A stretch of 64,000 nt of DNA, taken from assembly GCF_900115955.1 (NCBI RefSeq), contig NZ_FOYL01000007.1, positions 372,001 to 436,000 on the forward strand, read 5' to 3'. Positions within the stretch are counted from its first letter, which is position 1, and each line of letters opens with the position of its first letter. Positions 2,595-22,991 of this stretch are shown piece after piece. The notes below the pieces were generated by a model. That model was not told the origin of the DNA. It did not search any database and saw nothing but the letters and a program-made list of their open reading frames with translations. The translations under genes were made by a program, and so were the position numbers. The DNA comes from Lentzea waywayandensis. Lineage in GTDB: Bacteria > Actinomycetota > Actinomycetes > Mycobacteriales > Pseudonocardiaceae.

Positions 2595-3788
2595 TCACCA
2601 CACCACCGGAATCTCGGCCGCGCCGTAGGTGATCATGTCGTCGCGGTAGTCCATCTCCGTCACGGGCACGGCGGGACGCAGGTTCGGGAACCGTTCGAAC
2701 AGCGACCGCAGCCCGATCTGGAGCTCCGCGCGGGCCAGGTTGGCGCCGAGGCACTGGTGCGGCCCGAAACCGAACCCCAGGTGCGACACGGCGTCCCGTT
2801 CCAGGTCGAGCTCCTCGGCCCGCGGGCAGAGCTCCTCGTCGAGGTTCGCGATGAGCGACACGCTCACCCAGTCCCCCGCCTTGATCAGCACACCGTCGAC
2901 CTCGACGTCCTCGGTCGCCCTGCGGGTCAGGCCGGCACCGCCGAGCTGGCCCACCGTGTACCGCATCAGCTCCTCGACCATCACGTCGGCGCGGCTCGGG
3001 TCGCGCCGAAGGATCTCCAGCTGGTCGGGCTTCTCGAACAGGTGCAACGTGAACAGGCCGAGGAAGTTCGACGTCGTCTCGTGCCCGGCCGCGAGCAGGC
3101 CGATGCAGAGGAAGATCAGCTCGTCCATGCTGAAGTCGGTGTCGTTGGCCATCAGGCCGATCATGTCGTCGTTCGTCCCGGCGGCCTTCTTCTCCGCGAC
3201 GATCGGCGCGAGCACCTCGGCGAGCTTGGTGGCGTGCGCGAGGTACTCGTCCTTCGAGCCGTTCTTGCCGAACAGGTCGCCGGCCGTGGCCTGGAACAGC
3301 TCCTGATGCTCCGGCGGCACGCCCAGCAGCTCCGCGATCACCAGCGACGGCAGCGGCAGGCACAGCGAGGTGACCAGGTCGGCCGGAGCGCCCTTGGCCT
3401 CCATCACGTCGAGGTGCTCGTCGACGATCTGCTGGATGCGCGGGCGCAGCTCGTTCATGCGCTTGACCATGAAGCCGCGCGAGAGAGGACGACGCAACCG
3501 CATGTGCTCGGCGCCGTCGATGCCGTTGATGTTGCCCGGCTGGTCGGGGTCGAGCACGGTCTCGCCCTCGTCGGTGCGCATCTCGGGCTGACCGCCCTTG
3601 CGGGTGCTGAACCGCGCGTCGGACAGCACCTGCCGGACACCGGCGTAGCTGGACACGATCCAGGCCTCGACGCCGTTGGGCCACAGCATCTTCACCGGCC
3701 CGTCGCCGACGGCCTCGGGAAAGCCGACCGGCGGCTGAAGCGGGTGGTCGCGCTCGTGCAGGACGGGGCAGACGGCAGTTTCGGTCAC
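2595..3788 (-). CDS. Cytochrome P450
   Basis: The 397-residue protein carries all key P450 motifs: the I-helix AGHETTS (234-240), ExxR in EELMR (E273/R276), and the heme-thiolate loop FGFGPHQCLG with Cys346. It is soluble and of the bacterial CYP105/CYP107 general type. The stretch 'SLIANLDEEL' differs from the usual 'ANRDP' element. The substrate cannot be read from sequence. The GTG start at 3788 follows GAGGGGGA. It lies between a TetR gene upstream and a ferredoxin downstream on the same strand, so it may be a TetR-controlled monooxygenase for a xenobiotic or secondary metabolite. Confidence 0.95.
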   Translation of the reverse strand: MTETAVCPVLHERDHPLQPPVGFPEAVGDGPVKMLWPNGVEAWIVSSYAGVRQVLSDARFSTRKGGQPEMRTDEGETVLDPDQPGNINGIDGAEHMRLRRPLSRGFMVKRMNELRPRIQQIVDEHLDVMEAKGAPADLVTSLCLPLPSLVIAELLGVPPEHQELFQATAGDLFGKNGSKDEYLAHATKLAEVLAPIVAEKKAAGTNDDMIGLMANDTDFSMDELIFLCIGLLAAGHETTSNFLGLFTLHLFEKPDQLEILRRDPSRADVMVEELMRYTVGQLGGAGLTRRATEDVEVDGVLIKAGDWVSVSLIANLDEELCPRAEELDLERDAVSHLGFGFGPHQCLGANLARAELQIGLRSLFERFPNLRPAVPVTEMDYRDDMITYGAAEIPVVW

Positions 3789-3805
3789 GGGAAATCCCCC
3801 TCAAC

Positions 3806-3821
3806 AGAACAGAACTGTTCT
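3806..3821. promoter_or_regulatory. Candidate TetR operator upstream of the P450
   Basis: AGAACAGAACTGTTCT (3806-3821) is a near-perfect palindrome (GAACAG-AA-CTGTTC plus flanking A/T pairs). It ends about 18 bp before the P450 start, in the 79-bp gap below the TetR gene. Size and position fit repression by the adjacent TetR protein. Confidence 0.6.
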
Positions 3822-3867
3822 TTTGAATCCATGACCGAAAGTAGCGCAACGACTACGATCTGACGAG

Positions 3868-4431
3868 TTATTTGGTCCGAAATGCACTGGTCAACGGTCT
3901 CAACAGGCCGTCGACGATGCCGTCGATCACGCCTGGTTCCCCGGACCGCAGGACGAAGGTCGAGATCAGCGCGGTGATCAGGATGTCCGCGTCGAGGCGT
4001 TCCGGCAGCTCGCCGCGCGCCTTCGCCCGGTCCACGGCGACCCGGAGGTGCTCGGTGTAGGCGCGGTCGATGTGCTCCTCGCGCAGGCACGCGAGATCGG
4101 CGTCCTGGCGGCTGCCTTCGAGCAGCCCGAGGAAGATCCCGGCGGTGTCGAACGGCATCGGCTCGCCCCACGCCAGCAGGATCTGGCGGACGTCCTCGGC
4201 GAACGTCCCCTCGTCGGGCTGCGGCAGCTGGGGCAGGTTCGCCTTCAGGGCGTCCGTGATGAGCCGCGCCTTGGACGGCCAGCGCTGGTAGAGGCTCGCC
4301 TTGCTGGCGCGCGCCCGGCCCGCGACGAGGTCCATGTTGAACCGCGCGTAGCCGACTTCGGCCAGCACTCCGAGCACGGCGGCGAAGACCTCCTGCTGAC
4401 GCGCCGGCGCGTCCAGGGGGGTGCGGCCCAA
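3868..4431 (-). CDS. TetR/AcrR-family transcriptional regulator
   Basis: A 187-residue TetR regulator. The N-terminal helix-turn-helix is clear ('VLAEVGYARFNMDLVAGRARASKASLYQRWPSKARL', residues about 20-60, quoted in pieces: LVAGRARASKASLYQRW). A helical ligand domain follows, ending 'VLRSGEPGVIDGIVDGLLRP'. The start is a TTG at 4431 with GGAGG 4 nt upstream; no ATG or GTG fits the frame better. It is co-directional with the P450-ferredoxin pair and 79 bp upstream of it, so it is the likely repressor acting at the palindrome 3806-3821. Confidence 0.88.
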   Translation of the reverse strand: MGRTPLDAPARQQEVFAAVLGVLAEVGYARFNMDLVAGRARASKASLYQRWPSKARLITDALKANLPQLPQPDEGTFAEDVRQILLAWGEPMPFDTAGIFLGLLEGSRQDADLACLREEHIDRAYTEHLRVAVDRAKARGELPERLDADILITALISTFVLRSGEPGVIDGIVDGLLRPLTSAFRTK

Positions 4432-4580
4432 CCGACCTCCATCTGTGGCCGCTGCTCCGCAGACGGCGGCGAGTTCGCCTTTGAGTCGGCCATCCGGCCT
4501 CCGCTTCGGCCCGAATCGCCTGCGGCAGTTGACCCGAAGAGGAAACCGGACGACCGACGCGAACTCGCGTTCAGCATTGC

Positions 4581-6476
4581 TCAGGTGACGTGCACACTAC
4601 CGCCGGGCGCGTCCGTGAGCCGACCCGTCCGCCGCACCGACATCCACCGCATCTGCGTGCCGTGCACCGCCGTGATCAACGACTGGATCACCACGACGTA
4701 CATCAGCTGCCGGTACACGACCTGTTGCAGGGGATAGGCCCACAACGGCTTGAGCGACTCGCCGTCGAGCCGCAGCGCGTAGCCCGCGCTCGCCGTCTGG
4801 ATCAGCAGGAACACCGTCCACACGATCAACGCGAGCGGTGCGTCCGCGACGAGGAACCCGTACAGCACGAAGAGGTCCATCACCGGTGCGAGCAGCGGCA
4901 GCAGCAGGTGGAACGCCAGCAGGTAGAGGATGCCGAACCGGCCCATCGGCCCGTTCTCCACCAACGCGCCGCGGTGCTTCCACATCGCCTGAAAAGTGCC
5001 GTACGACCAGCGATAACGCTGTTTGAACAGGCCGTGGACGGTGGCCGGCGCCTCCGTCCACGCCTTGGCCTCCGGCCGGTAGGCGACCCGCCAGCCCGCG
5101 CGCGTGACGGCCATCGTGAGGTCCGTGTCCTCGGCCAGCGTGTCGTCGCTGACGCCGCTCACGTCGACGAGCGCGGCCCTGCGGAACGCCCCGACCGCGC
5201 CCGGCACCGTCGGGATGCAGCGCAGCGCGTGCAGGATCTGCCGGTCCAGGTTGGACCCCGCGCAGTACTCCAGGTGCTGCCAGCGCCCGAGCAGGCCCTG
5301 CCGGTTGCCGACCTTCGCGTTGCCGGAGACCGCGCCGACACCGTTGTCCGCGAACGGCTGCACGAGCTGGCCGATCGTGTCCGGCTCGAAGATCGTGTCG
5401 CCGTCCACCAGCACCAGCACGTCGTGCGTCGCCTCGCGGATGCCCGCGTTCAACGCGGCCGGCTTGCCCTGGTTGGTCTGCCGGATCACGGTGACGCCGG
5501 GCAGGTCCACTTCCTCGGCGATGTCCGCGGTGCCGTCCGTCGAGCCGTCGTCCACGACGATCACCTCGACATCCGCGAGGTGGTTGTTCCCGGCGATGGA
5601 CCTGATGGTGGCGACGATGTTCAGCGCCTCGTTGAACGCCGGGACGACCACGGAGACCGGCGGCGCGTGCCACGGCGGCGGCTCCTGCTCGCCCTCACGC
5701 CGCAGCCGGCGGTCGGTGTGCGCGAGGCCGAGCTGCATGAGGGTGCGCAGCAGGCCGAGCAGGGCGGCGATCGCGATGGCCGTGCCGAACAGCACGAGCA
5801 CGATGCCGCCGTTGCGCTGCGACCACGTGGTGACCGCTCCGGTGAACCGTTCGCGGGCGGAGGCTGCGACCGGCTGCTCGTCGCCGACCAGCACGAACCG
5901 GTAGCCGGGCTGCTTCGCGAGCTCACGGGCGATGTCGCCGCCGATGCTGCCGTCGTCGTGCAGCCGGACGACGCCGCCCTTCTCCCGCAACGACATCCGG
6001 ACCAGCGTGCCGATGTCCTGGTACTCGCGGTCGCCGCTGTCGACCTCGGCAGGAGCGCCGATCAGTCGCGTGTGGACACCCAGCGCGTCGGCGAGCGCGG
6101 CCTGCGCGAAGGCGAGGTTCAACGGGCCGGTGAGATCACCCTCGGCGCGGAACCCGTCGATGCCGATCCGATGCCCCTCGGCGACGATCCGGCGTGCCAC
6201 GTCGGGATGGCGGGTGACCTGGGCACCGGTGACGTAGAAGGTCGCCTTGACGCCGGCGGCGTTCAGCCTCTCCAGGGTGCGCGGGGTCCACTTCGGGTCG
6301 GGGCCGCCGTGGAACGCCAGCGCGAGCGTGCCGTCCGGCAGCTCCCGGTGCGCCCCGGCGTGCCGCACGGGTTCGGGCTTGATCGCGGCGTAGGCGTGGA
6401 ACGACACCACGCTCATCAGCACGAGCAGACCGAGCAGGATGGAGATCCAGTGCAACCGTGGCGTGCGCTTCACCAC
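4581..6476 (-). CDS. Membrane fusion protein: degenerate NodB deacetylase domain plus GT2 glycosyltransferase
   Basis: A 631-residue protein with an N-terminal membrane anchor (10-30), a NodB-like region (about 45-205), a TM segment (about 222-246), a processive family-2 glycosyltransferase domain (270-500) and C-terminal TM helices. The GT2 motifs are intact: DDGSTD (309-314), VDGD (357-360), EDTD (449-452) and QRYRW (486-490), typical of chitin/hyaluronan/poly-GlcNAc synthases. The NodB catalytic motif TFDDGP is replaced by AFHGGP (54-59), and the metal-binding HSxxH motif by GHRIGIDGF (101-109), so deacetylase activity is unlikely. The GTG start overlaps the stop of the small ORF upstream. 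It probably makes a cell-surface polysaccharide. Confidence 0.88.
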   Translation of the reverse strand: MVKRTPRLHWISILLGLLVLMSVVSFHAYAAIKPEPVRHAGAHRELPDGTLALAFHGGPDPKWTPRTLERLNAAGVKATFYVTGAQVTRHPDVARRIVAEGHRIGIDGFRAEGDLTGPLNLAFAQAALADALGVHTRLIGAPAEVDSGDREYQDIGTLVRMSLREKGGVVRLHDDGSIGGDIARELAKQPGYRFVLVGDEQPVAASARERFTGAVTTWSQRNGGIVLVLFGTAIAIAALLGLLRTLMQLGLAHTDRRLRREGEQEPPPWHAPPVSVVVPAFNEALNIVATIRSIAGNNHLADVEVIVVDDGSTDGTADIAEEVDLPGVTVIRQTNQGKPAALNAGIREATHDVLVLVDGDTIFEPDTIGQLVQPFADNGVGAVSGNAKVGNRQGLLGRWQHLEYCAGSNLDRQILHALRCIPTVPGAVGAFRRAALVDVSGVSDDTLAEDTDLTMAVTRAGWRVAYRPEAKAWTEAPATVHGLFKQRYRWSYGTFQAMWKHRGALVENGPMGRFGILYLLAFHLLLPLLAPVMDLFVLYGFLVADAPLALIVWTVFLLIQTASAGYALRLDGESLKPLWAYPLQQVVYRQLMYVVVIQSLITAVHGTQMRWMSVRRTGRLTDAPGGSVHVT

Positions 6477-6595
6477 GCTCCCAGCAGCGTGCCGCCCACC
6501 ACGGCGGCGAACACGATCAGTCCACTCGCGACGGTCCAGCTGACCAGCCTCGCCGCTACGCGTCTACCGCCTCTTGGATCGACGAAGACCTGCAT
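6470..6595 (-). CDS. 41-residue single-pass membrane peptide
   Basis: The ATG at 6595 opens MQVFVDPRGGRRVAARLVSW followed by one hydrophobic helix (VASGLIVFAAVVGGTLLGAW) and a stop at 6470-6472. It overlaps the end of the upstream membrane gene by 40 nt and the start of the glycosyltransferase by 7 nt (GTGGTGA), an arrangement typical of coupled genes. Positive residues before the helix predict a cytoplasmic N-terminus. It may be a small partner of the polysaccharide synthase. The ribosome site (AAGGA, 1 nt from ATG) is badly spaced, so confidence is moderate. Confidence 0.55.
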   Translation of the reverse strand: MQVFVDPRGGRRVAARLVSWTVASGLIVFAAVVGGTLLGAW

Positions 6596-6981
6596 TTCCT
6601 TCTGCCCCCAATGAAAACGCGGACGACCACGACCACCAGTGCCGCGCCGACCGCCGCCGCCATCCACGGAAACCCGTTCACCAGCCACGGGACCGCGTCC
6701 GCCGCGAACTCCTTGCTGCTCCCCCACGGAGCCAGCCTCTTCGACTGCCGTTCCCAGGCCGCGTTGCCCACCGCGACGACGACGAAAACGAGAGGTGGCG
6801 CCGGTGCCACCGTCCACAACCCGATGCGACGAACCAGTGCCGAGGCCACGACCGTGCCGCCCACCAGCCACACGCCGAAGGCCCAGCCGATGTCGCCCCC
6901 GTCCACCCAGACCCCCGTCTGCGTGAACAACGCCAGCATCGCGAGCGCGGCGAGACTGGGCAGTTGAACCCCCATGACCAC
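6556..6981 (-). CDS. Four-helix membrane protein (DUF6542-like)
   Basis: The 141-residue product has about four hydrophobic segments (e.g. 'LAALAMLALFTQTGVWV', 'WAFGVWLVGGTVVASALV', 'VAPAPPLVFVVVAVG', 'WMAAAVGAALVVVVVRVFI') and a basic C-tail. It looks like the small actinobacterial DUF6542 membrane family, though I cannot confirm that. The first codon is GTG at 6981; an ATG two codons later (6975) also fits AGGTGG. It begins the operon that continues into the small TM peptide and the GT2 protein, and is divergent from the LCP gene 28 bp away. Confidence 0.7.
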   Translation of the reverse strand: MVMGVQLPSLAALAMLALFTQTGVWVDGGDIGWAFGVWLVGGTVVASALVRRIGLWTVAPAPPLVFVVVAVGNAAWERQSKRLAPWGSSKEFAADAVPWLVNGFPWMAAAVGAALVVVVVRVFIGGRRKCRSSSIQEAVDA

Positions 6982-7009
6982 CTAGAATAGTTCAGGGGGT
7001 GTCCTGTTC

Positions 7010-8077
7010 ATGCAATCAGGTGGCGGCTATCACCGCACGGTCTTTCTCGTCGTGACGCGCACCGCGTGGCTGGCCCTGAGCGCGGTCCTGCTCGCCGCGT
7101 CGGCGTTCGCCTGGTCCACTGTGTCCACCATCTCGACCGGCGTCGAGCGGTCCTACGCGATCCCGGACGACGCGCCCCGGTCGGAGTCCGGCCGCAACAT
7201 CCTCATCATGGGCCTGACCACGAGGCTGGACCTGCACGGCGAACCGCTGCCCGACGACGTGCTGCGGCGCATGCAGGCGGGCGAGAGCGACCGCGGCGGG
7301 TACAACGCGAACACGCTGATCCTGTTGCACATCCCCGCTTCCGGGCCCGCGGTGGCTATGTCCGTGCCGCGCGACAACCTCGTGCCGCTGACCTCGGGCG
7401 GCGAGGGCAAGATCAAGGAGGCCTACGGCCGGGCCAAGATCGTCGAGGAGGACCGCCTGCGCGAGGCCGGGACGCACGACAAGCGGGAGCTGGAACGCGC
7501 CGGGCGTGAGGCGGGACGCAGGGCCCAGGTGCGGACGGTGTCGGCGTTCCTGAACCAGCCGATCGACCACCTCGTGGAGATCTCGCTGATCGGGTTCTTC
7601 CACATCGCCGAGGGGCTCGGCGGCGTGGACGTGTGCCTGCGCAACGCGACGAAGGACCCGTTGTCCGGCGCGGACTTCCCGGCCGGGCCGCAGCACCTCG
7701 ACGCGGGCCAGGCGCTGTCGTTCGTGCGGCAGCGGCACGGCCTGCCGAACGGCGACCTGGACCGCACGCGACGGCAACAGGCGTTCCTGTCGGCCGTGAC
7801 GAAGAGGCTCACAGGAGCGGACGTCACCGCGGTGCAGGCGATGATCGACATGGCGAAGCAGGACGTCGTGCTGGACGCGCGGTTCGACCTGATCGAGTTC
7901 GCCCGCGACGTTCCCGCGGAGGTGCGGTTCGACACGCTGCCGATCGAGGGCGGCGCGCACCTGGGCGGGCTCGACGTGAACAAGGTGGACCAGGCCAAGG
8001 TGCGGGCGAAGGTGACCGAACTGGCCACCGCCCCACCGCCCCCGCCGCCGAACGGAGGCATTCCGTGCGTCGACTAG
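7010..8077 (+). CDS. LytR-CpsA-Psr (LCP) family cell-wall glycopolymer ligase
   Basis: A 355-residue membrane-anchored protein with one TM helix (about residues 15-38) and an extracellular LCP domain. Family hallmarks are visible: 'NILIMGL', 'NANTLILLHI', the catalytic-type arginine in 'SVPRDN', and the C-terminal 'LSFVRQRHGLPNGDLDRTRRQQAFL' region (R/D cluster). LCP enzymes attach arabinogalactan, teichoic acid or other polymers to peptidoglycan using polyprenyl-phosphate intermediates. A proline-rich tail precedes the stop. Divergent from the polysaccharide-synthase operon, it may handle that or another surface glycan. Its TAG stop overlaps the stop of the convergent LuxR gene. Confidence 0.93.
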   Translation: MQSGGGYHRTVFLVVTRTAWLALSAVLLAASAFAWSTVSTISTGVERSYAIPDDAPRSESGRNILIMGLTTRLDLHGEPLPDDVLRRMQAGESDRGGYNANTLILLHIPASGPAVAMSVPRDNLVPLTSGGEGKIKEAYGRAKIVEEDRLREAGTHDKRELERAGREAGRRAQVRTVSAFLNQPIDHLVEISLIGFFHIAEGLGGVDVCLRNATKDPLSGADFPAGPQHLDAGQALSFVRQRHGLPNGDLDRTRRQQAFLSAVTKRLTGADVTAVQAMIDMAKQDVVLDARFDLIEFARDVPAEVRFDTLPIEGGAHLGGLDVNKVDQAKVRAKVTELATAPPPPPPNGGIPCVD

Positions 8078-10341
8078 GCGCGTCTTTCGGTGACCCAGGT
8101 GGCGATCTGCGCGCGTGAGGTGAACCCGAGCTTCTGCAGGATCCGCTCGACGTGTCCCTCCGCGGTCCGGCGCGCGATCACCAGCCTGGCCGCGATCTCC
8201 TTGTTCGACTTGCCGTCGGCGATGAGGTCGGCGACCTGCTGCTCGCGGCGGGTCAGCGGGGTGAGGGCAACGACCGGGGCCGGTTCCTCGGCCTGCTCCT
8301 CACCGATGGCGAACGCGATGGCGTCCTCCAGCTGGAGGTCCATGCCCTTGCGGAACATCTCCCGGAACTCGTGCTCGCCGAGCGCGGAGACCGTCGCCGA
8401 CTCGCACTCGCCGTGCGGGGCGCCGAAGTAGCGCGACCCGAACATGGGATAGCCCACCGACTGCCAGATCTCGTTGGTGGCGCCCAGCAGCGTGGCCGCG
8501 CGCACCGCGTCGCCCTGCGAGGCGGAGATCCAGGCCAGCACCTCTATCGCGAGCACGATGCCCAGCAGGTCGTGGAACGAGCGCTTCATCCGCAGGCACT
8601 CCCGGCCGAGCCGATCGGCGCGCACGAGGTCACCGCTGACCCACGCGCACAGGGCCAGCCCGTAGACCGCGTACGCCTGCGCCCACAGTTCGCCGTGTTC
8701 CTCGCCGACGGCCCTGGCCTCGACGCAGAGCCGTTCCGCGGCGGCGAAGTCGTGCTGGAACGTCGCGGAGATCGCGAGCTCGATGCCGGCGAGCATGGTG
8801 TGGCTGTTGACCGTGCCCTGGCCCTGGTAGAGGCGCATGGCCTCCTCGAACAGGCTGTCCGCGAGGTGCAGGTCGTCGCCGATCAGGTGCGTGCAGCCGA
8901 GGCGGTGGGTCGCGTAGGCGAGCGCGGGCCCGTCACCGGACGCGACCGCGTACTCGCGGCATTCGTCCAGCATCCGCGTCGACGCGGGCAGATCTCCCTG
9001 CAGCGTCGACACATAACCGTTGACCCACAACGCCTTGGCCCGCAAGGGGCCCGGTTTCGCGCTCGCCACGGCGCGGTCGAGCCAGTGGCGGCCCTCGCCG
9101 AGCATGCCGCAGCCCGCCCAGTAGAACCACAGCGTGCTGGCCAGATGAACGCAGTGGTCGGTGTCGTGGTCGAAGCAGAAGTCCAGGGCGGACCGCAGAT
9201 TCGCGTGTTCCAGGCGGGTCAGCGAGAAGATCTGCGGCTGGCCGGGCCCGAACCACTCCTTCTCGCGCCGCTCGGCCCACTCGATGAAGTGGTCGCGGTG
9301 CCGTTCCCGCATCACCTGCTCGCGGCCGGCGTCGCGCAGCTTCTCCAGGCCGTACTGGCGCAACGGCTCCAGCAGCCGGAACCGGGTTCCGGACGGCTGC
9401 TGCTCCGACACCAGGACCGACTTGTCGACCAGGCCCATCAGCGAGTGCATGACCTGCTCGGGCGCGACGCCGTCACCGGAGCAGACCCGTTCGGCCGCCT
9501 CCAGGTCGAACGTGCCGGAGAACACCGACGCCCGCGCCCACAGGATCTGCTCGGGCCGCGTGCACAGGTGGAAGCTCCAGTCGACGGCGGCGTGCAGCGT
9601 CTGGTGGCGCGGATCGCCGCCGCGCTTGCCCTCCACGAGCACCCGGAACGTGTTGTCCAATCTGGACGACAGGTGGTCGAGGCTGAGCACGCGCAGGCGC
9701 ACCGCGGCCAGTTCGATGGCCAACGGGATTCCACCGAGCAGGGTGCAGATCTGGCTGACCTGGGCGTGGTTGCGCGCGGTGAGGACGAATCCGGGTTCGA
9801 CGGCCGCGGCCCGTTCGGCGAAAAGCGCCAGCGCCGGGTCCTGGGGCAGCGGCGCGACCTGCCAGAGGTGTTCGCCGTCGACGCCGAGACGTTCCCTGCT
9901 GGTGACGAGCACGCGCAGACTCGAGACCCCGCGCAGCAACGCGTCCACGAGGTCGGCGGTCGCCCCGACGACGTGCTCGCAGTTGTCCAGGATCATCAGC
10001 ATCTGCCGGCCGTGCAGGTGTTCCATCAGAACGGTGCGGTGCATGCGGACCGTGTCGTTGTGCACGCCCAGTTGTTCCAGAACCGTGTGCACGACCAGTT
10101 CCGGGTCGGTGACGCCGCCCAGTTCGACGAACCACACCCCGTCGCGGAACGCCCTGCTCGTCTCGGCGGCAGCGCGCAGCGCCAGCCGCGTCTTGCCGAC
10201 ACCACCGACACCCGTAAGGGTGACGAGGCGCGACTCGGACAGCAGCCTTCTCACCTCGGCGACATCGCGCTTGCGGCCGACGAAAGTAGTTGTGTCAGCA
10301 GGCAAATTGCCTCTGCGACCTGGGGAAAGCGAACCGCCCAC
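8074..10341 (-). CDS. Large ATP-binding LuxR-family regulator (NB-ARC/TPR/LuxR)
   Basis: 755 residues: an N-terminal P-loop ATPase with Walker A GVGGVGKT (44-51) and Walker B 'MLMILDNCEH', a winged-helix/TPR-like middle, and a C-terminal LuxR helix-turn-helix ('LTRREQQVADLIADGKSNKEIA', 'RTAEGHVERILQKLG'). It resembles actinobacterial 'LuxR with NB-ARC-like ATPase' activators rather than classical MalT. These respond to unknown ligands and often control nearby genes. The start is GTG at 10341. The upstream 150 bp carries two CTAG-centred palindromes and the divergent STAS gene. The stop overlaps the LCP stop in CTAG (8074-8077). Confidence 0.9.
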   Translation of the reverse strand: MGGSLSPGRRGNLPADTTTFVGRKRDVAEVRRLLSESRLVTLTGVGGVGKTRLALRAAAETSRAFRDGVWFVELGGVTDPELVVHTVLEQLGVHNDTVRMHRTVLMEHLHGRQMLMILDNCEHVVGATADLVDALLRGVSSLRVLVTSRERLGVDGEHLWQVAPLPQDPALALFAERAAAVEPGFVLTARNHAQVSQICTLLGGIPLAIELAAVRLRVLSLDHLSSRLDNTFRVLVEGKRGGDPRHQTLHAAVDWSFHLCTRPEQILWARASVFSGTFDLEAAERVCSGDGVAPEQVMHSLMGLVDKSVLVSEQQPSGTRFRLLEPLRQYGLEKLRDAGREQVMRERHRDHFIEWAERREKEWFGPGQPQIFSLTRLEHANLRSALDFCFDHDTDHCVHLASTLWFYWAGCGMLGEGRHWLDRAVASAKPGPLRAKALWVNGYVSTLQGDLPASTRMLDECREYAVASGDGPALAYATHRLGCTHLIGDDLHLADSLFEEAMRLYQGQGTVNSHTMLAGIELAISATFQHDFAAAERLCVEARAVGEEHGELWAQAYAVYGLALCAWVSGDLVRADRLGRECLRMKRSFHDLLGIVLAIEVLAWISASQGDAVRAATLLGATNEIWQSVGYPMFGSRYFGAPHGECESATVSALGEHEFREMFRKGMDLQLEDAIAFAIGEEQAEEPAPVVALTPLTRREQQVADLIADGKSNKEIAARLVIARRTAEGHVERILQKLGFTSRAQIATWVTERRA

Positions 10342-15201: not shown

Positions 15202-16446
15202 CTAGCTGATCTTCGCGCGGTGTTTCAAGAACAACTCGTGCCGCAGGTGATCGTCCTGTCCCACAAACCCCTTGAACGTTCCCAGCCGGTACGCCGTCGC
15301 ACTGGAGCCGTTGCGGACCTCAACTGCGAAGTCCCTGCTGAGAGCGCTGATCGCACGCTCCAGCTCGTAGGACTCCAAAGACCTGCCGACGGCCTTCTCA
15401 AGCTGCCGCTGGGTCATGAACTCACCGCTGTCACGCAGCACGCGGTAGATCGGATCCTGATCAGCGTTGACGTCCCGTTCGTGCCGCTTGCCCGTCTTCT
15501 TCAGCGCCCGGCGAATGGAAGTGCCGATCGCCTGCGCGACCGGAGGCGGGAACGCATTGCCAATTTGACGGTACCGAGAGGTCTTACGACCTTCGAAGAT
15601 CCACTTGTCGCTGTCCTGCCAGCCCTGAATGCGGGCCACCATCTCGCACGTGAGCTTGGGCCCCACCTTGAACACATCACCAGGTGCCGGTGGTTCATCG
15701 GCGACGCCCATCGCGTCGACGCCGAGCTCGGCCCACGCGCGCTTTGCCCTGGTCGGCCCGAGATCTGCCCCGCCGTGCTTCTTCGAACCGCCGACGATGG
15801 TCGGGCCGATGCCGTTCGCGAGACGCGCCCAGTCGTCCGCACCTTCCCAGCCTCGCGATGCCATCAGGTCTTTCAGCACCGCCCCGACTGCCGGCGTCGA
15901 ACTCTGAGCCTTCGGCCAAGCGAAGTAAGGGGCGTACTGGTCCTGCAGAGCGACGAGCACGAATCTCGGCCTGAGCTGCGGCACCCCGAATTCGGAGGCG
16001 TGCAGCAACCGCCATTCGGCGACGTAACCCATCTGGCCAAGGCGATCGAGCACGTGCTGCCGGTAGCCAGCGAACCGGGGCATGCTCAAACCTCTGACGT
16101 TCTCCAGCATCAACGCTTGCGGCCTGACCACCTCGCACAGCTCGACCGCCCACGCGAAGAGGTCGCGCTCGTCGTTCGCGCCGAGCTGCTTGCCCGCGAT
16201 GCTGAACGGCGGGCACGGCACGCCACCAGCGAGCAGCGGAACTCCGAGGTGTTCCATCGGGTTCCACACGTTGAGGTCCGCGACGTCACCGGTGGCCACC
16301 TCGGCGTGCGGAAGATTCCGCCGCAGCGTGGCCGAGGCGTTCACATCGAGCTCAACGGCGAGCCGATGCTTGAAGCCCGCTTTCTCAAGACCCAGCGCCT
16401 GGCCTCCGGCGCCGGCGCAGATCTCTACGACTTCGAGGTTCTGCAC
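15202..16446 (-). CDS. DNA (cytosine-5) methyltransferase, partner of the NaeI-type enzyme
   Basis: 414 residues with the ordered m5C motifs: I EICAGAGG (8-15), IV GVPCPPFS with catalytic Cys78, VI ENVRGL (115-120), VIII QLRPRF and X RQIGNAFPPP. The variable region between VIII and X is the target-recognition part. A C-terminal extension of about 100 residues ('MTQRQLEKAVGRSLESYELE') looks like a winged helix and is unusual. GTG start after GGAGGAG. Next to Vsr and a NaeI homologue, it probably protects GCCGGC sites. This specificity is inferred from the NaeI partner and not shown by the methyltransferase itself. Confidence 0.93.
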   Translation of the reverse strand: MQNLEVVEICAGAGGQALGLEKAGFKHRLAVELDVNASATLRRNLPHAEVATGDVADLNVWNPMEHLGVPLLAGGVPCPPFSIAGKQLGANDERDLFAWAVELCEVVRPQALMLENVRGLSMPRFAGYRQHVLDRLGQMGYVAEWRLLHASEFGVPQLRPRFVLVALQDQYAPYFAWPKAQSSTPAVGAVLKDLMASRGWEGADDWARLANGIGPTIVGGSKKHGGADLGPTRAKRAWAELGVDAMGVADEPPAPGDVFKVGPKLTCEMVARIQGWQDSDKWIFEGRKTSRYRQIGNAFPPPVAQAIGTSIRRALKKTGKRHERDVNADQDPIYRVLRDSGEFMTQRQLEKAVGRSLESYELERAISALSRDFAVEVRNGSSATAYRLGTFKGFVGQDDHLRHELFLKHRAKIS

Positions 16447-16550: not shown

Positions 16551-17048
16551 ATGTCTGATAAGAGCAGGGCGGAAGCCCGGCAGCGCGCCCATGAGGCCGG
16601 GCTCTATCCAGCGCCCCTCAACGAAGGCCGCTCCCGCAACATGAGCGCGAACCGGCGTTCCGGGACGAAGCCCGAGGTCGCACTGCGCAGCGCCCTGTTC
16701 AGGCTCGGCTACCGCTACCGCAAGGACCACCTGCTCCGGCTCGACGGCGGGATGCGAGTGAAACCTGACATCGTCTTCACCGCACGCAAAGTCGCGATCT
16801 TCGTTGACGGCTGCTTCTGGCACGTCTGTCCCGAGCACGGCCGGCAGCCCACCACCAACGAGTGGTACTGGACTCCCAAACTCCGCCGGAACATGGAACG
16901 CGACGAGTCCGTGAACACGGCGCTGAACGCCGCAGGCTGGCGTGTCTTGCGTTTCTGGGAACACGAGCAGGTGCCGGATGCTGTCGGCACTGTCGTGGCC
17001 ACCCTGGAGCAGACCGAACATAAGTTCGACCCTACCTCCGAGGTCTGA
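16551..17048 (+). CDS. vsr: Very short patch repair (Vsr) endonuclease
   Basis: 165 residues with Vsr landmarks: 'MSANRRSGTKPEVALRSALF', 'KPDIVFTARKVAIFVDGCFW' (catalytic Asp in KPDIVF), zinc/active-site 'FWHVCPEHG', and 'GWRVLRFWEHE'. Vsr nicks beside T:G mismatches that arise when 5-methylcytosine deaminates, so it counteracts mutation caused by the adjacent methyltransferase. The ATG at 16551 is used; the longer frame from 16482 overlaps the divergent promoter. The 104-bp gap to the methyltransferase start is a divergent promoter. Confidence 0.94.
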   Translation: MSDKSRAEARQRAHEAGLYPAPLNEGRSRNMSANRRSGTKPEVALRSALFRLGYRYRKDHLLRLDGGMRVKPDIVFTARKVAIFVDGCFWHVCPEHGRQPTTNEWYWTPKLRRNMERDESVNTALNAAGWRVLRFWEHEQVPDAVGTVVATLEQTEHKFDPTSEV

Positions 17049-17083: not shown

Positions 17084-18031
17084 CTAGCGGTCGCTCTGCT
17101 TTCGCGGGACGACCGGCGCCTCGCACACACCATCCGCGGCGGTCGCGATCACCCAGCGCCGTCCTTCGATCTCCGCGGATGGCCTTGAGTCACCTTCAGG
17201 TGCTGGCACCACTCGTGCCGCGACCACCTCGCCCTTGTGAGGTACCGGGAGCCCGAGATCGCGCGCCACTGCTGGGTCGTTGTCCTGGTGCCCCAGCACC
17301 AGAATCCCTTCAGGACGCAGATAAGTCCTAGCGCCCCCGTAGCCTCGCACGCGCTTCATGAAGTCGTCCTGTTGTGCAACTGTGGCAATCACAGTGCGGC
17401 CGACCAGCACTCCCTGCAACTCCCGGAACAACTGGTTGACTCGCGCCTGCCCGTGCTGACTCCCTCTCTTCGCGGTCGCGTTGAAAATGCGACCGCGAGA
17501 TGCGTCGTCCAAGTGCAGCAACAGATTCTCCCTCAGCACACCGCGCGCCTGCCACAACGGGACCACGGCCGCCTTGCCCGCTGGATTCAGCTTCCTCTTG
17601 TTGTCCCTGTTCGCAGCTGAGAGCTGATTCCCGTCAACCCTGACGAGTCCCGCCGACCACGCGCTTTCCGCATCGCTGGCCCACACGACCAGGCAAACGT
17701 GATTCCATGCCTCAGGCGGGAGCATCCACTCTCCCCAGGCCTTCGAGAACTTGCAATCGACCTGGACGCCGGCGATCCGGTAGTCGGTCTGGTCACCATC
17801 ATCGAAGCCGAACTCACGATGCAGGTTGATTTCCACCAACGTGCCCATGTGAGTCTTCTCGGTCTTGTGCAACTGATCGTAGTTCCATCGGCCGGTCCTC
17901 TGGCCGTCGTACAACTGGTCGTAGGTCGCCCGGAGGACGCCGGCGAACCTCTGCCCATCCGGATCGAGCTTGTACAGCTCCGACCTCACGAGCTCAAGTT
18001 CGGCATCTGAACCAACAGGAGTGTCGATCAC
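17084..18031 (-). CDS. NaeI-family type IIE restriction endonuclease
   Basis: 315 residues, close to the 317 of NaeI and alignable from end to end by eye: 'LDPDG', 'QLYDGQRTGRWN', 'QLHKTEKTHMGTLVEINLHR', 'GVQVDCKF', 'VIATVAQQDDFMKRVRG', 'RPEGILVLGHQDNDP' and a terminal 'EAPVVPRK'. The catalytic residues appear as E67, D83, D92 and K94 (EIN, TDY, VDCK). The residue matching NaeI Leu43, whose change to Lys is reported to turn NaeI into a topoisomerase, is Leu40 here, so nuclease activity is expected. The C-terminal half is the CAP-like effector-binding domain of NaeI. Predicted to cut GCCGGC after binding two sites. Confidence 0.93.
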   Translation of the reverse strand: MIDTPVGSDAELELVRSELYKLDPDGQRFAGVLRATYDQLYDGQRTGRWNYDQLHKTEKTHMGTLVEINLHREFGFDDGDQTDYRIAGVQVDCKFSKAWGEWMLPPEAWNHVCLVVWASDAESAWSAGLVRVDGNQLSAANRDNKRKLNPAGKAAVVPLWQARGVLRENLLLHLDDASRGRIFNATAKRGSQHGQARVNQLFRELQGVLVGRTVIATVAQQDDFMKRVRGYGGARTYLRPEGILVLGHQDNDPAVARDLGLPVPHKGEVVAARVVPAPEGDSRPSAEIEGRRWVIATAADGVCEAPVVPRKQSDR

Positions 18032-18103: not shown

Positions 18104-18799
18104 TCAGTTGAGCAAATCGGCCCTCACAACACTCTTGGCCTCCTCCGGCAGGCGCCGGTAGGCGTTCCACGCGCGTTCCAGCGCCGTCGAACCACGCCTG
18201 CCGCGATTCATCCAGCGCAGCAACCGCGCACGATCGGCTTGGTCGAGCCCCTTGATCGCCGCAAGAACGTCATCAACCTCGACCGGTGCGCCATCAAAGC
18301 CGGCCCGGCACCGCTTGCACTCAGTCGTCAGCAGGATCTCCTGCTCACCATCAGGCAGGATCACCTCCAGCCTCGTCACCGAGAGCACAGCGGCCTGGTT
18401 CGAGTCGTCCAAGTATTCCTCGCCACCAGAAATACCGCAGCTCGTGCACATGTAGCTGTCGCGCGCCATGACCGCCTTCTTTTCTTTGGCGGAAACAGCC
18501 TTCTGCGGCGCGGCCGCCCGGCGTGCAACTGGATCCCACACCGGGACCCCGGCCTTCACGAACCGCTGGTCTTGTGCGGTGAGAGTGGCGTCCTCGGTGT
18601 TCGTGAGGATCACCCAGCCGAAAGCGCGCAGGTCACGAATGCGACGGTCAGCCTGAGACACGCCGGGAAAAACTTCCCGGAGCTGCGCCTTGGTGAACCG
18701 GTTTCCCTCACCGACCTGCTGCAACAGCCACAAAGCACCCTTGACCATGACGCCTGCTTCCAGCGCCGGATCGTTCCACTCAGGGATCGCCAACTCCAC
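18104..18799 (-). CDS. Winged-helix plus HNH-derived zinc-finger protein
   Basis: 231 residues. Residues about 15-80 look like a winged helix ('VKGALWLLQQVGEGNRFTKA', 'SQADRRIRDLRAFGWVI'). Residues 110-175 hold two CxxC pairs (MCTSCG, ECKRCR) in an HNH-like frame ('ARDSYMCTSCG' to 'LTTECKRCRAG'), but the HNH histidines are replaced ('VTRLEVILP'), so it is probably a structural zinc domain and not a nuclease. The C-terminus is helical. It is 73 bp from the NaeI start and divergent from the ParB-like operon. It could be the controller of the island or a nuclease relic. Confidence 0.7.
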   Translation of the reverse strand: MELAIPEWNDPALEAGVMVKGALWLLQQVGEGNRFTKAQLREVFPGVSQADRRIRDLRAFGWVILTNTEDATLTAQDQRFVKAGVPVWDPVARRAAAPQKAVSAKEKKAVMARDSYMCTSCGISGGEEYLDDSNQAAVLSVTRLEVILPDGEQEILLTTECKRCRAGFDGAPVEVDDVLAAIKGLDQADRARLLRWMNRGRRGSTALERAWNAYRRLPEEAKSVVRADLLN

Positions 18800-18911: not shown

Positions 18912-20321
18912 ATGTCCCGCAAGTTCGGCGTTCCACCGCAAGGCGACCACATCCGTTCCATCGTGGAGGAGCGGCTTGAGCAGGCGCTCCGGGAGAAGGG
19001 CGCCAAGATCACCGTGGATTGGCGTGGGGAGCAGAAGCACCTCGACGTCATCTCCATGCCGGTGGAGTTGCTGTACTTCAACCCGGACACTCACCGGATC
19101 AGGGCCCAGCGCACGCTCGACCCTGCGAAGGACAAGGCGCTCGACGAGAACCCCTGGAGCGACGAAAGTCAGGACTACCTCCGCCACCTGCTCACGCGCA
19201 GGCCGTCCAACCCGTCTCAGCTCGATCCCGACTACACCGCGCTGATGGACGAGCTGGACGACTTCCAGCAAAAAGAGCCAGGGATCATCACCCAGGAAGG
19301 CATCCTGGTCGACGGCAACACACGCCGGGCTGCGTTGCTGGAGCTCGGCGTCAAGGACATCAGGGTCGGTGTCCTGCCTGCGGACACCTCCCGCAACGAC
19401 GTCAACCGGGTGGAACTCGCCCTGCAGCTGCGCCGCGACAAGCGTCGCGAGTACTCGTACATCAACAGGCTGATGGCGATCGAAGAGCAGCTCACAGAAG
19501 GCAGGCGTGAGGACGACGTCGCTCGCGAGTTCAACATCAAGATCACGACGCTTCGCAAAGACAGGTGGGTCTACGAGCTCATCAGCGACGCGATCGAGAG
19601 GAGCGCGACGGACGGCGGCGTGGCGCTGAGGCTGGTCGACTTCGAAGATCACCAGGAAAAGCTCCGCGAGCTTCACCGCGACTACGAGAAGCTGGCTGCG
19701 ACGGACCCGGACGCGGCATCGCAGCTCAAAGAATCCCGCCTGGCGATGGTCGTGCTCAACTACCCGAAGACCACCCTGCGCCTGGCTGAAGCCGACTTCC
19801 ACAACCGGTACCTGGACGCACGGCTTCCCGATGACCTCAAGCCGGTGGTTCAGGAACCCGCCAGCGTGAGCATCCCGGGACTGCCGGGCATCACCGTCCC
19901 CGATGCCACGAGCCAGACGAAGACCACGCGTGAGCTGACCAACACGCTGCTTCGAGCGAAAGCCATCGCTCAAGCAGGCGACAAGGTCTCCGCCGGTGAG
20001 GTGTCACGGGCGGACCAGCTGATGAAATCCGCGCGCGGTGTCTTCGACAAGGCGGTGGATCTCGCTGGGCAGAACGCGAGGTTGCTGAAGCGGCAGGTGG
20101 CAGTGTCAGAGCGCCTCACCGACGCCGCGGACTACGTCAACCAGTGCGTCGCCGAGTTCGCCGAGGCAAGAGCCAAGCATGCCCTGGACGAGGACTCGTT
20201 CGACGACGCGTTGCTGACTCTGCGCGCAAGCCTGGCAAGCCTCGCCAAGCACGCGGGCCGCACGTTCACCGCTCCAGGCGACGGTGTGGCGTGGTTGCTC
20301 GAAGCGTCCAAGGAGCAGTGA
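18912..20321 (+). CDS. ParB/Srx-like domain protein (defence-island module)
   Basis: 469 residues. A ParB/sulfiredoxin-type motif, GILVDGNTRR, sits at 130-139 after a domain beginning about residue 40 (LDVISMPVELLYFNPDTHRI). It is followed by a helix-turn-helix-like stretch ('REDDVAREFNIKITTLRKDR') and a long helical C-terminus. ParB/Srx folds can bind or hydrolyse nucleotides (CTPase, nuclease-like). The start at 18912 has GGAGG 7 nt upstream. It is the first gene of an operon with a SNF2-type helicase (TGATG overlap) and a DUF3883 protein, suggesting one complex acting on DNA. Function in defence is inferred from context. Confidence 0.82.
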   Translation: MSRKFGVPPQGDHIRSIVEERLEQALREKGAKITVDWRGEQKHLDVISMPVELLYFNPDTHRIRAQRTLDPAKDKALDENPWSDESQDYLRHLLTRRPSNPSQLDPDYTALMDELDDFQQKEPGIITQEGILVDGNTRRAALLELGVKDIRVGVLPADTSRNDVNRVELALQLRRDKRREYSYINRLMAIEEQLTEGRREDDVAREFNIKITTLRKDRWVYELISDAIERSATDGGVALRLVDFEDHQEKLRELHRDYEKLAATDPDAASQLKESRLAMVVLNYPKTTLRLAEADFHNRYLDARLPDDLKPVVQEPASVSIPGLPGITVPDATSQTKTTRELTNTLLRAKAIAQAGDKVSAGEVSRADQLMKSARGVFDKAVDLAGQNARLLKRQVAVSERLTDAADYVNQCVAEFAEARAKHALDEDSFDDALLTLRASLASLAKHAGRTFTAPGDGVAWLLEASKEQ

Positions 20322-22150
20322 TGACGGGGAGCGCCGGGCCGAGCCTCGTGATCGGGTTCGGTGACGACGTGACAACGGCGCGTCTCCGTGCCGGCGACGG
20401 ACACGAGCCGGACTTGCGCCGGCTCGCTCTGCGTCTGCGCAGCGGCGTGCAGCGTTCGGCGAGCACGATGGACGTCGCCATCGACGACCTGCTCACGAAC
20501 CTCGTCGCGCTCTCCACCTGGCCTGAGCCGGCGAGTGTCTCCTGGGATCCGCAACTCGCCGCTCTGGCGACGGACTCCGCAGTGGACGCGCAGACGGTCG
20601 AAGCCCGGCTGGCTTCGGACACGCCGTCCGCGGCGGAGGTGTCCGTTGACGACATAGACGTGCTTACCGGCGCGGAATGGATCGGCGACCTGACGGCGTT
20701 TCAGCGCAGAGACATCGCAAAGCTGCTGTCTCTGCGCCACGGGGCCAACTTTTCCGTCCCTGGCGCTGGCAAGACCCGTGTCGCCCTTGCCGTGTTCCAA
20801 GCTCTGCGTCAGACCAAGCGAATCGAGCGCATCCTCATCGTCGGGCCGAAGTCCTGCTACGAGGCTTGGCAGGAGGAGAACAAGATTTGCTTCGCCACAC
20901 CTTTGCGCACCGATGTGTTCTCCCGAGAGGCTGACCCATCCTCAGAGGCGCTCATCGTCAACTACGAACGGCTCGCGCCCGCTGTCGACGAGCTCGGCCA
21001 GTGGCTCACCGCCCGGCCGTCAATGCTGGTGCTGGACGAGGCCCACAGGATGAAGCTTGGCGCCGACGGCACCTACGGCTCGGCGTGTCTCGCGCTCGGG
21101 CCCCGAGCACGTCATCGGCTCATCCTGACCGGTACGCCCGCGCCGAACGGAGTCAAGGACCTCGAGAACCTCTTCGGATTCGTCTGGCCCGGCCACGGCA
21201 GGCAGAAGGTGATTCAAGCGGTGGCGGGTGGCGACCTGCCGAAGGCAAGCAAGGTGCTGCGGCCGTTGTTCGCCCGCACGACCAAATCAGATCTCGGGCT
21301 CACCCCACCGGAGACGAAGATGGTCCCGGTTCCAATGCCGCCGCTGCATCGGGAGGTGTACGAGGCGCTTTGTGGCCGGTTCTCGGCGCGGGCGAACGGC
21401 GCGGAAGGAGACTTCGCCGCGTTGGGCAAGATTGTCGTGTACATGCTGATGGCCGCGACCAGTCCCGCGCTGCTCTCAGTCGGCACGACTCGGCACGAAC
21501 CTCTTGCGTATCAGGTGCCGCCCCTCGCCGTCCCACCTGATACCCCGCTGTTCAGGCTGATGCAGGATCTGCCTGCCTACGAGTTGTCGCCCAAGTACCA
21601 GGAGACTCTGGCGATCGTTGCGAAAAACGCCGCCGCTGGACGGAAGACGCTCGTCTGGTCCACGTTCATCCGGAGCCTCAACACGCTTCAACGTCTGCTG
21701 AGCACGTTCAATCCCGCGATGGTGCACGGTGGCACAGAAGACCGCGAAGACCAGATCACCCGGTTCCGCAACGACCCGGACTGCATGGTTCTGCTGTCCA
21801 ACCCGGCCACTCTCGGCGAGGGGATCAGCTTGCACCACCATTGTCACGACGCCGTGTACGTGGACCGCGACTTCGCAGCAGGTCGTTTTCTTCAAAGCCT
21901 CGACCGCATCCACAGGCTAGGGCTCCCACCCGAGACGGAAACCAGGATCACGGTTCTGGTGACCGAGTCCAGCATCGACGAGATCGTCGCTGCGCGTCTT
22001 GGAGACAAGCTGGAGTTCATGGGCCGGATACTCGACGACCCGGCAGTCCACGAGCTCGCCGATCTCGACGAGGAGCCCTCGGTGGGTGGCGGGCTCGACC
22101 AGCGGGACATCCGGGCGTTGCTGGGACATCTCCGTGGCCATTCCGTCTGA
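20321..22150 (+). CDS. SNF2-type DEAD/DEAH-box helicase
   Basis: 609 residues. After about 120 unassigned residues comes a superfamily-2 ATPase: Q-like 'LTAFQRRDIAKLLSLRHGAN', Walker A SVPGAGKT (145-152), DEAH (239-242), motif III 'LILTGTPAPN', motif V 'LLSNPATLGEGISLHHH' and motif VI 'SLDRIHRLG', the last typical of SNF2/RapA translocases. It probably moves on double-stranded DNA rather than unwinding it. The ATG overlaps the ParB-like stop, and its own end overlaps the nuclease start by 17 nt, so the three genes are tightly coupled. Confidence 0.93.
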   Translation: MTGSAGPSLVIGFGDDVTTARLRAGDGHEPDLRRLALRLRSGVQRSASTMDVAIDDLLTNLVALSTWPEPASVSWDPQLAALATDSAVDAQTVEARLASDTPSAAEVSVDDIDVLTGAEWIGDLTAFQRRDIAKLLSLRHGANFSVPGAGKTRVALAVFQALRQTKRIERILIVGPKSCYEAWQEENKICFATPLRTDVFSREADPSSEALIVNYERLAPAVDELGQWLTARPSMLVLDEAHRMKLGADGTYGSACLALGPRARHRLILTGTPAPNGVKDLENLFGFVWPGHGRQKVIQAVAGGDLPKASKVLRPLFARTTKSDLGLTPPETKMVPVPMPPLHREVYEALCGRFSARANGAEGDFAALGKIVVYMLMAATSPALLSVGTTRHEPLAYQVPPLAVPPDTPLFRLMQDLPAYELSPKYQETLAIVAKNAAAGRKTLVWSTFIRSLNTLQRLLSTFNPAMVHGGTEDREDQITRFRNDPDCMVLLSNPATLGEGISLHHHCHDAVYVDRDFAAGRFLQSLDRIHRLGLPPETETRITVLVTESSIDEIVAARLGDKLEFMGRILDDPAVHELADLDEEPSVGGGLDQRDIRALLGHLRGHSV

Positions 22151-22991
22151 CCGAATCCTGCGCGCGGCCGTTCGCTGGCTGGAGTTGCTCCCGCATTCCT
22201 CCCCAGCGCGCTGCCGCGCGCTCTTCACAACCCACACCGACTACAGCGACATCACCCCGACGCAGTACGAACTGGCGTACGTCTGGCTGAGGGAAGCCGG
22301 GTTGCTGAGAGACCCGGAGCGCTCTCGCTCCGTTGAGCTCAGGGTCTTCTCCGCGGCGATGAGCAGCAGTCCCGCCGCGTGGTTCGCCGACGCCGACATC
22401 TTGGTCAGGGAACCGTCCGAATTGCCAGCAGACGCACTCCGGGTCGCCGATCTTCTCGGGTTCTCCGCAGAGGAAGCGCACGGCGAGATCGTCGCGATGT
22501 GGGGGAAGGTGGATCTTGAACGCCGCCAGCAAGTTGGTGCCGCTGGTGAGCTCGCGCTCGTCAAGCTCTTGGCCAAGTACGTTCCAGCCCGCGTAGACCA
22601 CGTCGCCGCAGTGTCGGACGGACATGGCTACGACATCGCTGTCCACACGGCCCCGCTTGCCACGCACCTCGAAGTGAAATCAACGCTGCGCCGGGGGCGT
22701 CTCACCATTCACCTGTCGCGGCACGAGTTTGAGACGATGCGGCGGGACGCGCAGTGGCTTCTCGTAGCTGTCCGCCTGACTTCTGAACTGGTTCCAGCCG
22801 CGATCGCCACCGTTCCGAGCGACTGGATCTCCGCCAACGTCCCGGTGGACCACACCATCTCGGGGCGGTGGGAGGCGTGTCGGCTCGAGGCACCACCAGA
22901 AGTCTTGCAACCCGGTATTCCCGCGCTTGCGGGCATACCGGCAGACAACTGTTCCGCCTTGCTGACCGGCGAGATCCGCTGGCCAGGATGA
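22134..22991 (+). CDS. DUF3883 PD-(D/E)XK-like nuclease
   Basis: 285 residues. An N-terminal helical/winged region of about 130 residues is followed by a DUF3883-type domain: 'VGAAGELALVKLL' (E139), 'SDGHGYDIAV' (D167), and 'HLEVKSTLRRGRLTIHLSRH' (E180-x-K182), matching the E-D-ExK pattern of restriction-endonuclease folds. The GTG at 22134 lies inside the helicase gene. It is probably the nuclease of the ParB-helicase-nuclease operon. The other possible reading is a DNA-binding subunit, since DUF3883 activity is not widely demonstrated. Confidence 0.82.
   Translation: MAIPSDRILRAAVRWLELLPHSSPARCRALFTTHTDYSDITPTQYELAYVWLREAGLLRDPERSRSVELRVFSAAMSSSPAAWFADADILVREPSELPADALRVADLLGFSAEEAHGEIVAMWGKVDLERRQQVGAAGELALVKLLAKYVPARVDHVAAVSDGHGYDIAVHTAPLATHLEVKSTLRRGRLTIHLSRHEFETMRRDAQWLLVAVRLTSELVPAAIATVPSDWISANVPVDHTISGRWEACRLEAPPEVLQPGIPALAGIPADNCSALLTGEIRWPG

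Follow-up and report, generated by a model that had tools for sequence, protein, structure and literature searches.

A ParB-like protein and an SNF2 motor form a gene pair carried on restriction-modification loci of three bacterial phyla

What are overlapping genes for a ParB-like protein, an SNF2-type motor and a nuclease doing beside a restriction enzyme? The question is raised by a 64,000-nt stretch of the Lentzea waywayandensis genome (contig NZ_FOYL01000007.1, positions 372,001 to 436,000; hereafter the window, to which coordinates refer). Here gene A encodes a 469-residue ParB/Srx-fold protein with a helix-turn-helix and long C-terminal helices (18912..20321, plus strand, ATG start), gene B a 609-residue SNF2-family motor (20321..22150, plus strand) and gene C a 285-residue NOV_C/DUF3883 nuclease of the PD-(D/E)XK type (22134..22991, plus strand, GTG start). 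A preliminary description had proposed that the three form a defence module. The domains, the coupling of the genes and the key residues on which it relied hold, but a free-standing module does not, as the genes travel with restriction-modification (R-M) loci and C is present in only 40 of 80 related loci. The window genes are one well-formed example of a ParB-SNF2 pair on an R-M locus, a pair that may have gone unnoticed as a helper, or a second arm, in bacterial DNA defence. Judging from genes and neighbourhoods, the reading we prefer, and hold with about even confidence, is that A-B(-C), together with a winged helix-turn-helix (wHTH)/zinc protein, would form an ATP-driven addition to restriction, sharing its methyl mark with the R-M locus around it.

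The constancy of the A-B arrangement was assessed in homologues taken from the best 120 of 1293, 263 and 473 matches. The actinobacterial set consists of the 80 of 88 relatives kept in a genome scan, each fetched with up to 10 kb on either side (loci are numbered with the prefix L); genes were called with a simple finder of our own, and matches to the neighbourhood hidden Markov models (HMMs) were counted in the very loci that the models had been built from. In the window, the stop codon of A (TGA, 20319-20321) shares a base with the ATG of B at 20321 (TGATG) and B overlaps C by 17 nt, which bears out the stop-to-start coupling described earlier. In all 80 related loci and the window, B comes directly after A in the same orientation; it overlaps A in 70, abuts it in 10 and lies 162 nt away in 1, an arrangement that is far beyond chance. 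The actinomycete genomes with A and those with B are the same 9 of 394, as judged from the best few candidates scored per genome.

The unit in actinobacteria is wHTH-A-B(-C), with C in clade I and not in clade II. Pairwise identities within this set correlate closely between A and B (r 0.94), A and wHTH (0.89) and A and C (0.84), and less so between A and the methyltransferase (0.61), NaeI (0.49) or Vsr (0.28). This suggests that wHTH-A-B-(C) travels largely as a single block, around which the methyltransferase and the restriction endonuclease are exchanged. The contrast is weaker within clade II alone (A-B 0.96, A-wHTH 0.78, A-methyltransferase 0.81, A-NaeI 0.78).

The pair also recurs outside actinobacteria. 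A plasmid search with A returned four distant alphaproteobacterial relatives, each followed by SNF2 and DUF3883 genes (with a transposase in between in Mesorhizobium); compared with the window, the Rhizobium proteins show 38% identity over 601 columns for B, 24% for A (E 4e-20) and 31% over 97 residues of the catalytic part for C. Searching plasmids with B alone gave 26 records from Actinomycetota, Pseudomonadota and Bacillota, and an A-family frame stands directly upstream of B in 25/25 of the plasmid records read and in one prophage. These 25 of the 26 records amount to about 17 distinct ones by our own grouping, with near-copies such as L162 with L167-L169, L156 with L170 and L153 with L173; both genes are broken in L163, and B is broken in L162. 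Querying phage records with the A protein of Rhizobium turned up two partial matches, one a 4.3-kb unannotated record and the other leading to the Streptococcus prophage Javan191, where the order is BanI-type endonuclease, ParB, SNF2, NOV_C and C5 methyltransferase. A single scan of viral contigs with the A alignment produced 54 pattern matches and no relative. The three-gene order ParB-SNF2-NOV_C, whose recurrence across phyla had been proposed as a check, is found in actinobacteria, on four alphaproteobacterial plasmids and in a streptococcal prophage, and the A-B identity correlation reaches 0.96 over 37 loci from three phyla.

The surroundings of the pair are nearly always those of restriction loci. 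To the left of A-B-C in the window lie a C5-cytosine DNA methyltransferase (15202..16446, minus strand; Pfam DNA_methylase, 1.4e-56; PADLOC MTase_II, 720 bits) beside NaeI and also close to the PADLOC DruM2 model (662 bits), a Vsr mismatch endonuclease (16551..17048, plus strand; Pfam Vsr, 4.1e-20; TIGR00632, 166 bits; the start was chosen by our gene finder in a frame open from 16482), a NaeI-type restriction endonuclease (17084..18031, minus strand; Pfam NaeI, 5.3e-111) and the wHTH/zinc gene. A C5 methyltransferase gene lies within the fetched stretch in 76 of the 80 actinobacterial loci, and Vsr in 69. The host genome (10.15 Mb) holds 3 C5 methyltransferase genes, so that by simple arithmetic fewer than 1% of its 21-kb stretches, taken at random, would include one. 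Among the plasmid and prophage loci, 24/26 have R-M genes in the stretch read: a C5 methyltransferase in L129-L132, L153-L155, L158, L160, L165, L166 and L173, and a type III res gene in twelve others (L156, L157, L161-L164 and L167-L172). The latter include mod-res-ParB-SNF2 operons in Enterococcus and lactobacilli. That the pair is a separate defence module which merely sits in the same islands as R-M genes is unlikely: it would leave aside the methyltransferase in 76/80 loci and the translational coupling of the type III operons, as in L156, where res (2598-5501), ParB (5491-6762) and SNF2 (6752-8614) overlap, as well as an 8755-bp Lacticaseibacillus paracasei plasmid (unnamed_4, L164) on which nothing but mod, res, a ParB-like gene and SNF2 is annotated. 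This plasmid offers a minimal natural test system.

The restriction enzymes near the pair are of unrelated kinds, namely NaeI, NgoMIV, GmrSD_N, BanI-like, Sau3AI/MutH and type III Res; NaeI and NgoMIV share the target GCCGGC. NaeI is found without A-B in 21 of 26 NaeI genomes and A without NaeI in 4 of 9 A genomes, so that the A-B unit is an addition to the NaeI system. An alternative that we consider possible though rather improbable is that A-B uses ATP to help the adjacent endonuclease, by clearing bound proteins or anti-restriction factors or by joining distant sites, with C as an optional finishing nuclease. The variety of partner enzymes would fit such a helper, as would the lack of C in clade II and the need for two sites of NaeI, Sau3AI, NgoMIV and type III enzymes. 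It is harder to reconcile with the many NaeI genomes that lack the pair, and with nine loci of clade I (with C) and 21 of clade II (without C) that have a methyltransferase and no recognised restriction endonuclease, some of their unclassified open reading frames having been scanned (the two from L007 are a PIN_8 protein and one without a match).

What the proteins themselves suggest begins with A. Canonical ParB proteins carry the motif GERR; in the A family GNTR or GNRR stands in its place. A holds the motif GILVDGNTRRAAL at residues 130-142 (19299..19337, plus strand), a putative nucleoside triphosphate (NTP)-binding P-motif. Its N136, T137 and R138 are unchanged in 38/38 aligned sequences, exact GNTRxAAL occurs in 70/81 actinobacterial A frames, and GNRR in 16/16 of the proteobacterial and Bacillota frames listed. 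By sequence alone, A has no Pfam match over the cut-off and no PDB match at E<=1. Its predicted structure (pLDDT 88.7), compared with the PDB by Foldseek, matches KorB, ParB and Noc, the top match being KorB 8qa9_B (E 4.8e-5, probability 1.00), with a moderate TMt of 0.55 and an rmsd of 6.5 over about half of A. These matches support a ParB fold and, with the conserved motif, uphold the ParB/Srx character first assigned to A; an NTP switch is plausible from the modelled fold and the motif.

Many ParB-fold proteins are encoded outside partition operons, and a function is known for few of these. The matches to KorB, Noc and ParB, and the ParA genes upstream of the pair in two Exiguobacterium loci, would suit a role in the maintenance or silencing of mobile DNA, played without cutting by a ParB-like clamp together with SNF2. 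We regard this as highly improbable, since none of eight window proteins scanned with Pfam matched a ParA model as the canonical ParABS partner, C belongs to a nuclease family, and the linkage to R-M would be left unexplained. The part available to us of a survey of the ParB-CTPase fold family (PMC12704722) deals with ParBs that are orphans or are fused to other domains. They resemble A in fold and in having a GxxR motif; the word SNF2 is absent from the text. NTPase and unspecific nuclease activities are reported for ParB-fold proteins in the accessible part of PMC5512222, and such activities may be relevant at loci that lack a recognised nuclease gene. In our samples the A family is never without its SNF2 partner and is nearly always in restriction loci; such loci thus offer a direct test of ParB-type switches outside chromosome segregation.

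B bears the marks of a motor throughout. It matches SNF2-rel_dom (5.5e-17) and Helicase_C (3e-6) and carries VPGAGKT and DEAH, in agreement with the SNF2 motifs noted before. The Walker A motif GAGKT (20762..20776, plus strand) lies inside a subfamily signature, FSVPGAGKT. A G(A/S/T)GK(T/S) motif and the DEAH string are present in 81/81 B frames (80 loci and the window), and FSVPG(A/S)GKT in 12/12 of the relatives checked from plasmids or phages. In L004 and L075 the B sequence is divided between two frames. SNF2 genes beside NaeI in two loci without A (L143 and L145) also match the B model at E<1e-30, and we rejected them: they are larger proteins with DUF3670 or SNF2_assoc and the string ADDMGLGKT, and they score 138-273 bits in a run in which true B proteins score 856-1002. 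Given these scores and domains, none of the 15 A-less NaeI loci read, out of 21 such genomes, contains a true B.

The nuclease, on the other hand, is interchangeable. C matches NOV_C only (Pfam, 8e-8; 32.7 bits against a curated cut-off of 22.1), with a predicted catalytic stretch E139 ... D167 ... E180-x-K182 (22548..22679, plus strand). These four residues, recognised from the outset, are invariant in 23/23 aligned sequences and present in the Rhizobium relative as well. Of 41 C frames, 40 match a regular expression written for the pattern, the exception, L012, having the E without the preceding G. A NOV_C partner is present in 40/80 actinobacterial loci, of clade I, in 4/5 alphaproteobacterial plasmid loci (no NOV_C was found in the fifth, the unannotated Paracoccus locus L159) and in Javan191. 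As C is missing from half of the actinobacterial loci, the A-B pair does not depend on having a nuclease of its own.

Other nucleases take this place elsewhere. Four of the five C5-type Bacillota B proteins scanned carry a phospholipase D-like (PLD) domain, PLDc_2, at the N-terminus, three of them scoring above the curated cut-off and that of L158 slightly below (26.4 against 27 bits); the fifth is that of Javan191, which has NOV_C instead. The PLD part reads HxK-x-G ... GSxNET in 4/4, none matched the expression HxKxxxxD, and that of L153 resembles PADLOC PbeA (225 bits). PLD-type Bacilli loci (L153-L155, L165) lie beside MutH/Sau3AI genes. In the 12 type III loci, Res stands directly upstream of the pair, and the PLD-bearing L154 groups with them both in the A tree (support 0.91) and in the B tree (0.99), as if the PLD part had been dropped once Res became available.

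Our preferred reading, an ATP-driven add-on sharing the methyl mark of its locus, would work as follows. Methyltransferases of this family mark self DNA by known chemistry, and the neighbouring one would do so here. A, possibly aided by the wHTH/zinc protein, would then load on unmodified or foreign DNA as an NTP-gated clamp or adaptor; B, bound to A, would translocate along duplex DNA, as its family suggests; and the partner nuclease would cut, being C in the window and elsewhere a PLD domain fused to B or type III Res. The constant part, ParB clamp and SNF2 motor, would thus load onto DNA and move along it, with the variable nuclease as the output. What we observe is the constant pairing of A and B in our samples, their translational coupling, their recurrence in several phyla, their linkage to R-M genes, the exchange of partners and the invariance of the predicted catalytic residues. 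We infer that A loads on unmodified DNA, that an NTP gates this step, that the proteins form a complex and that DNA is cut, the clamp step because of the fold and motif of A. Nine clade I loci that hold a methyltransferase and C, with none of the other restriction endonuclease families modelled, speak for this reading.

Several observations weigh against this reading. In 21 clade II loci (wHTH-A-B, methyltransferase and Vsr) neither C nor any modelled restriction endonuclease family was found, so that the nuclease there is unrecognised or absent. No methyltransferase was found in the stretch fetched for L002, L065, L069 and L079 (4/80), nor in the unannotated L159 or in L128, where there is only a gene annotated as a restriction endonuclease. 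The identity correlations partly reflect host relatedness. A second motor is odd in type III loci, which already have a motor and a nuclease.

A broader proposal, which we put forward tentatively and hold to be doubtful, is that ParB-SNF2 is the core of an unrecognised ATP- and NTP-gated restriction class in which the clamp senses unmodified DNA and loads the motor. If true, the pair would be a nuclease-agnostic platform (NOV_C, PLD, type III Res) serving type II and III R-M in at least three phyla, and in the nuclease-less clade ParB itself or motor-driven blocking would act. If the pair acts in restriction at all, an ATP-driven arm has been overlooked in loci filed as plain type II or III R-M, and phage resistance and barriers to transformation would have to be predicted differently, for instance in Streptomyces and lactobacilli.

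The fourth member of the unit, overlooked in the preliminary description, is the 231-residue wHTH/zinc protein (18104..18799, minus strand), found in 79/80 actinobacterial loci. An N-terminal winged helix is followed by a CxxC..CxxC zinc region that is HNH-like without the catalytic histidine. We rejected an active HNH nuclease for now: the cysteines are kept, and at the position of the histidine in the HNH consensus 0/40 aligned sequences have one (T, S, A or F instead). Foldseek returned nothing at E<=0.001 and VIA-align only weak HNH matches, so the fold assignment is tentative. No homologue was found by HMM in the 26 plasmid and phage loci, including the Streptomyces plasmid L128, and the alphaproteobacterial gene upstream of ParB (280-319 residues) has no Pfam match in 4/4 cases. 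wHTH-like frames occur in 2/15 NaeI loci without A (L139 and L145), so the gene is not exclusive to the pair. A further wHTH/zinc gene lies beyond the methyltransferase in L011 (6231-6929) and L019 (6200-6898).

In most clade I loci the wHTH gene and A point away from each other, an arrangement compatible with a regulatory role, in which A-B would limit R-M damage through restriction alleviation, control at the level of the endonuclease, or repair, with Vsr, of cut or deaminated DNA. The presence of Vsr in 69/80 loci would also agree with such self-protection, and in the part of the literature available to us the ParB-superfamily protein DndB is proposed as a negative regulator in Dnd systems. 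We nevertheless find it improbable: A correlates less with Vsr than with any other gene compared, an invariant PD-(D/E)XK nuclease makes a poor protector, and A-B is missing from most NaeI genomes.

Finally, we compared the locus with known systems. With PADLOC (PADLOC-DB 2023), A, B and C are without a full-length match to any named system, in line with the initial view that the set does not match DISARM, BREX, Druantia or Zorya. The partial matches of B include ZorD (55 bits), DpdE (53), HmaA (49) and DrmD (43). DISARM, Zorya and Dpd have an SNF2 motor in common with B, but their other components were unmatched among seven window proteins: for DISARM, partial DrmD and DrmA matches to B come without DrmB, and for Zorya (ZorA/ZorB with ZorC/D) the partial ZorD matches are to B alone. 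NaeI, C5 methyltransferase and Vsr make the host locus, though not A-B-C itself, a NaeI type II R-M system. The pair follows mod and res in Enterococcus and lactobacilli; in the window, mod and res were unmatched among eight (Pfam) and seven (PADLOC) proteins, and the pair lies outside classical type III.

The CglI and NgoAVII systems have a C5 methyltransferase. According to the accessible parts of PMC4267653 and PMC5737866, they combine a methyltransferase with separate nuclease and superfamily 2 (SF2) motor proteins, as the A-B-C locus does; their cutting needs ATP hydrolysis and, for CglI, also communication along DNA. Their PLD-type R protein has no counterpart in the window, where C is NOV_C only, PLD being found only in Bacilli relatives. 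SNF2 and DUF3883 also occur together in R-M operons in the portion of PMC3710099 available to us, which names DUF3883 a novel restriction endonuclease domain; there the two are fused and have a HEPN-AAA+ partner, whereas the window has separate genes and a ParB partner. Known neighbourhoods that combine a DNA methylase, mostly for cytosine, with Vsr, an SF2 helicase (some of the SWI2/SNF2 type) and a restriction endonuclease are likewise similar to the locus. In the literature covered, mostly outside subscription papers and bioRxiv, the ParB-SNF2 pair in R-M loci appears undescribed.

Some further loci merit mention. Adjoining A-B in L069 (6395-7606) and L079 (8309-9517), without a C5 methyltransferase, is an AspBHI-like modification-dependent restriction endonuclease, the reverse of R-M logic; the same family occurs with a methyltransferase in L016, L017 and L039 (its Pfam assignment comes from the L039 protein). 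In a Rhizobium pRL11 island (L129), an AAA_15/AAA_21 ATPase gene (4783-6618) lies between methyltransferase and ParB operon. L041, the only genome-contig record among the 80 titled outside Actinomycetota (a Clostridia metagenome-assembled genome), has the clade II set with NaeI, methyltransferase and Vsr and is possibly mis-binned. A PIN_8 protein with a small partner is encoded near the methyltransferase in L007 (5390-7555, the copy matched by Pfam), L014, L033, L036 and L040, and is possibly another defence pair of clade I loci. Streptomyces loci of clade I (L005, L011, L020, L040) and clade II (L043, L044, L049, L055) are flanked by the same gene families (c7/c10 to one side and c9 to the other), which looks like a common chromosomal hotspot swapping R-M cassettes.
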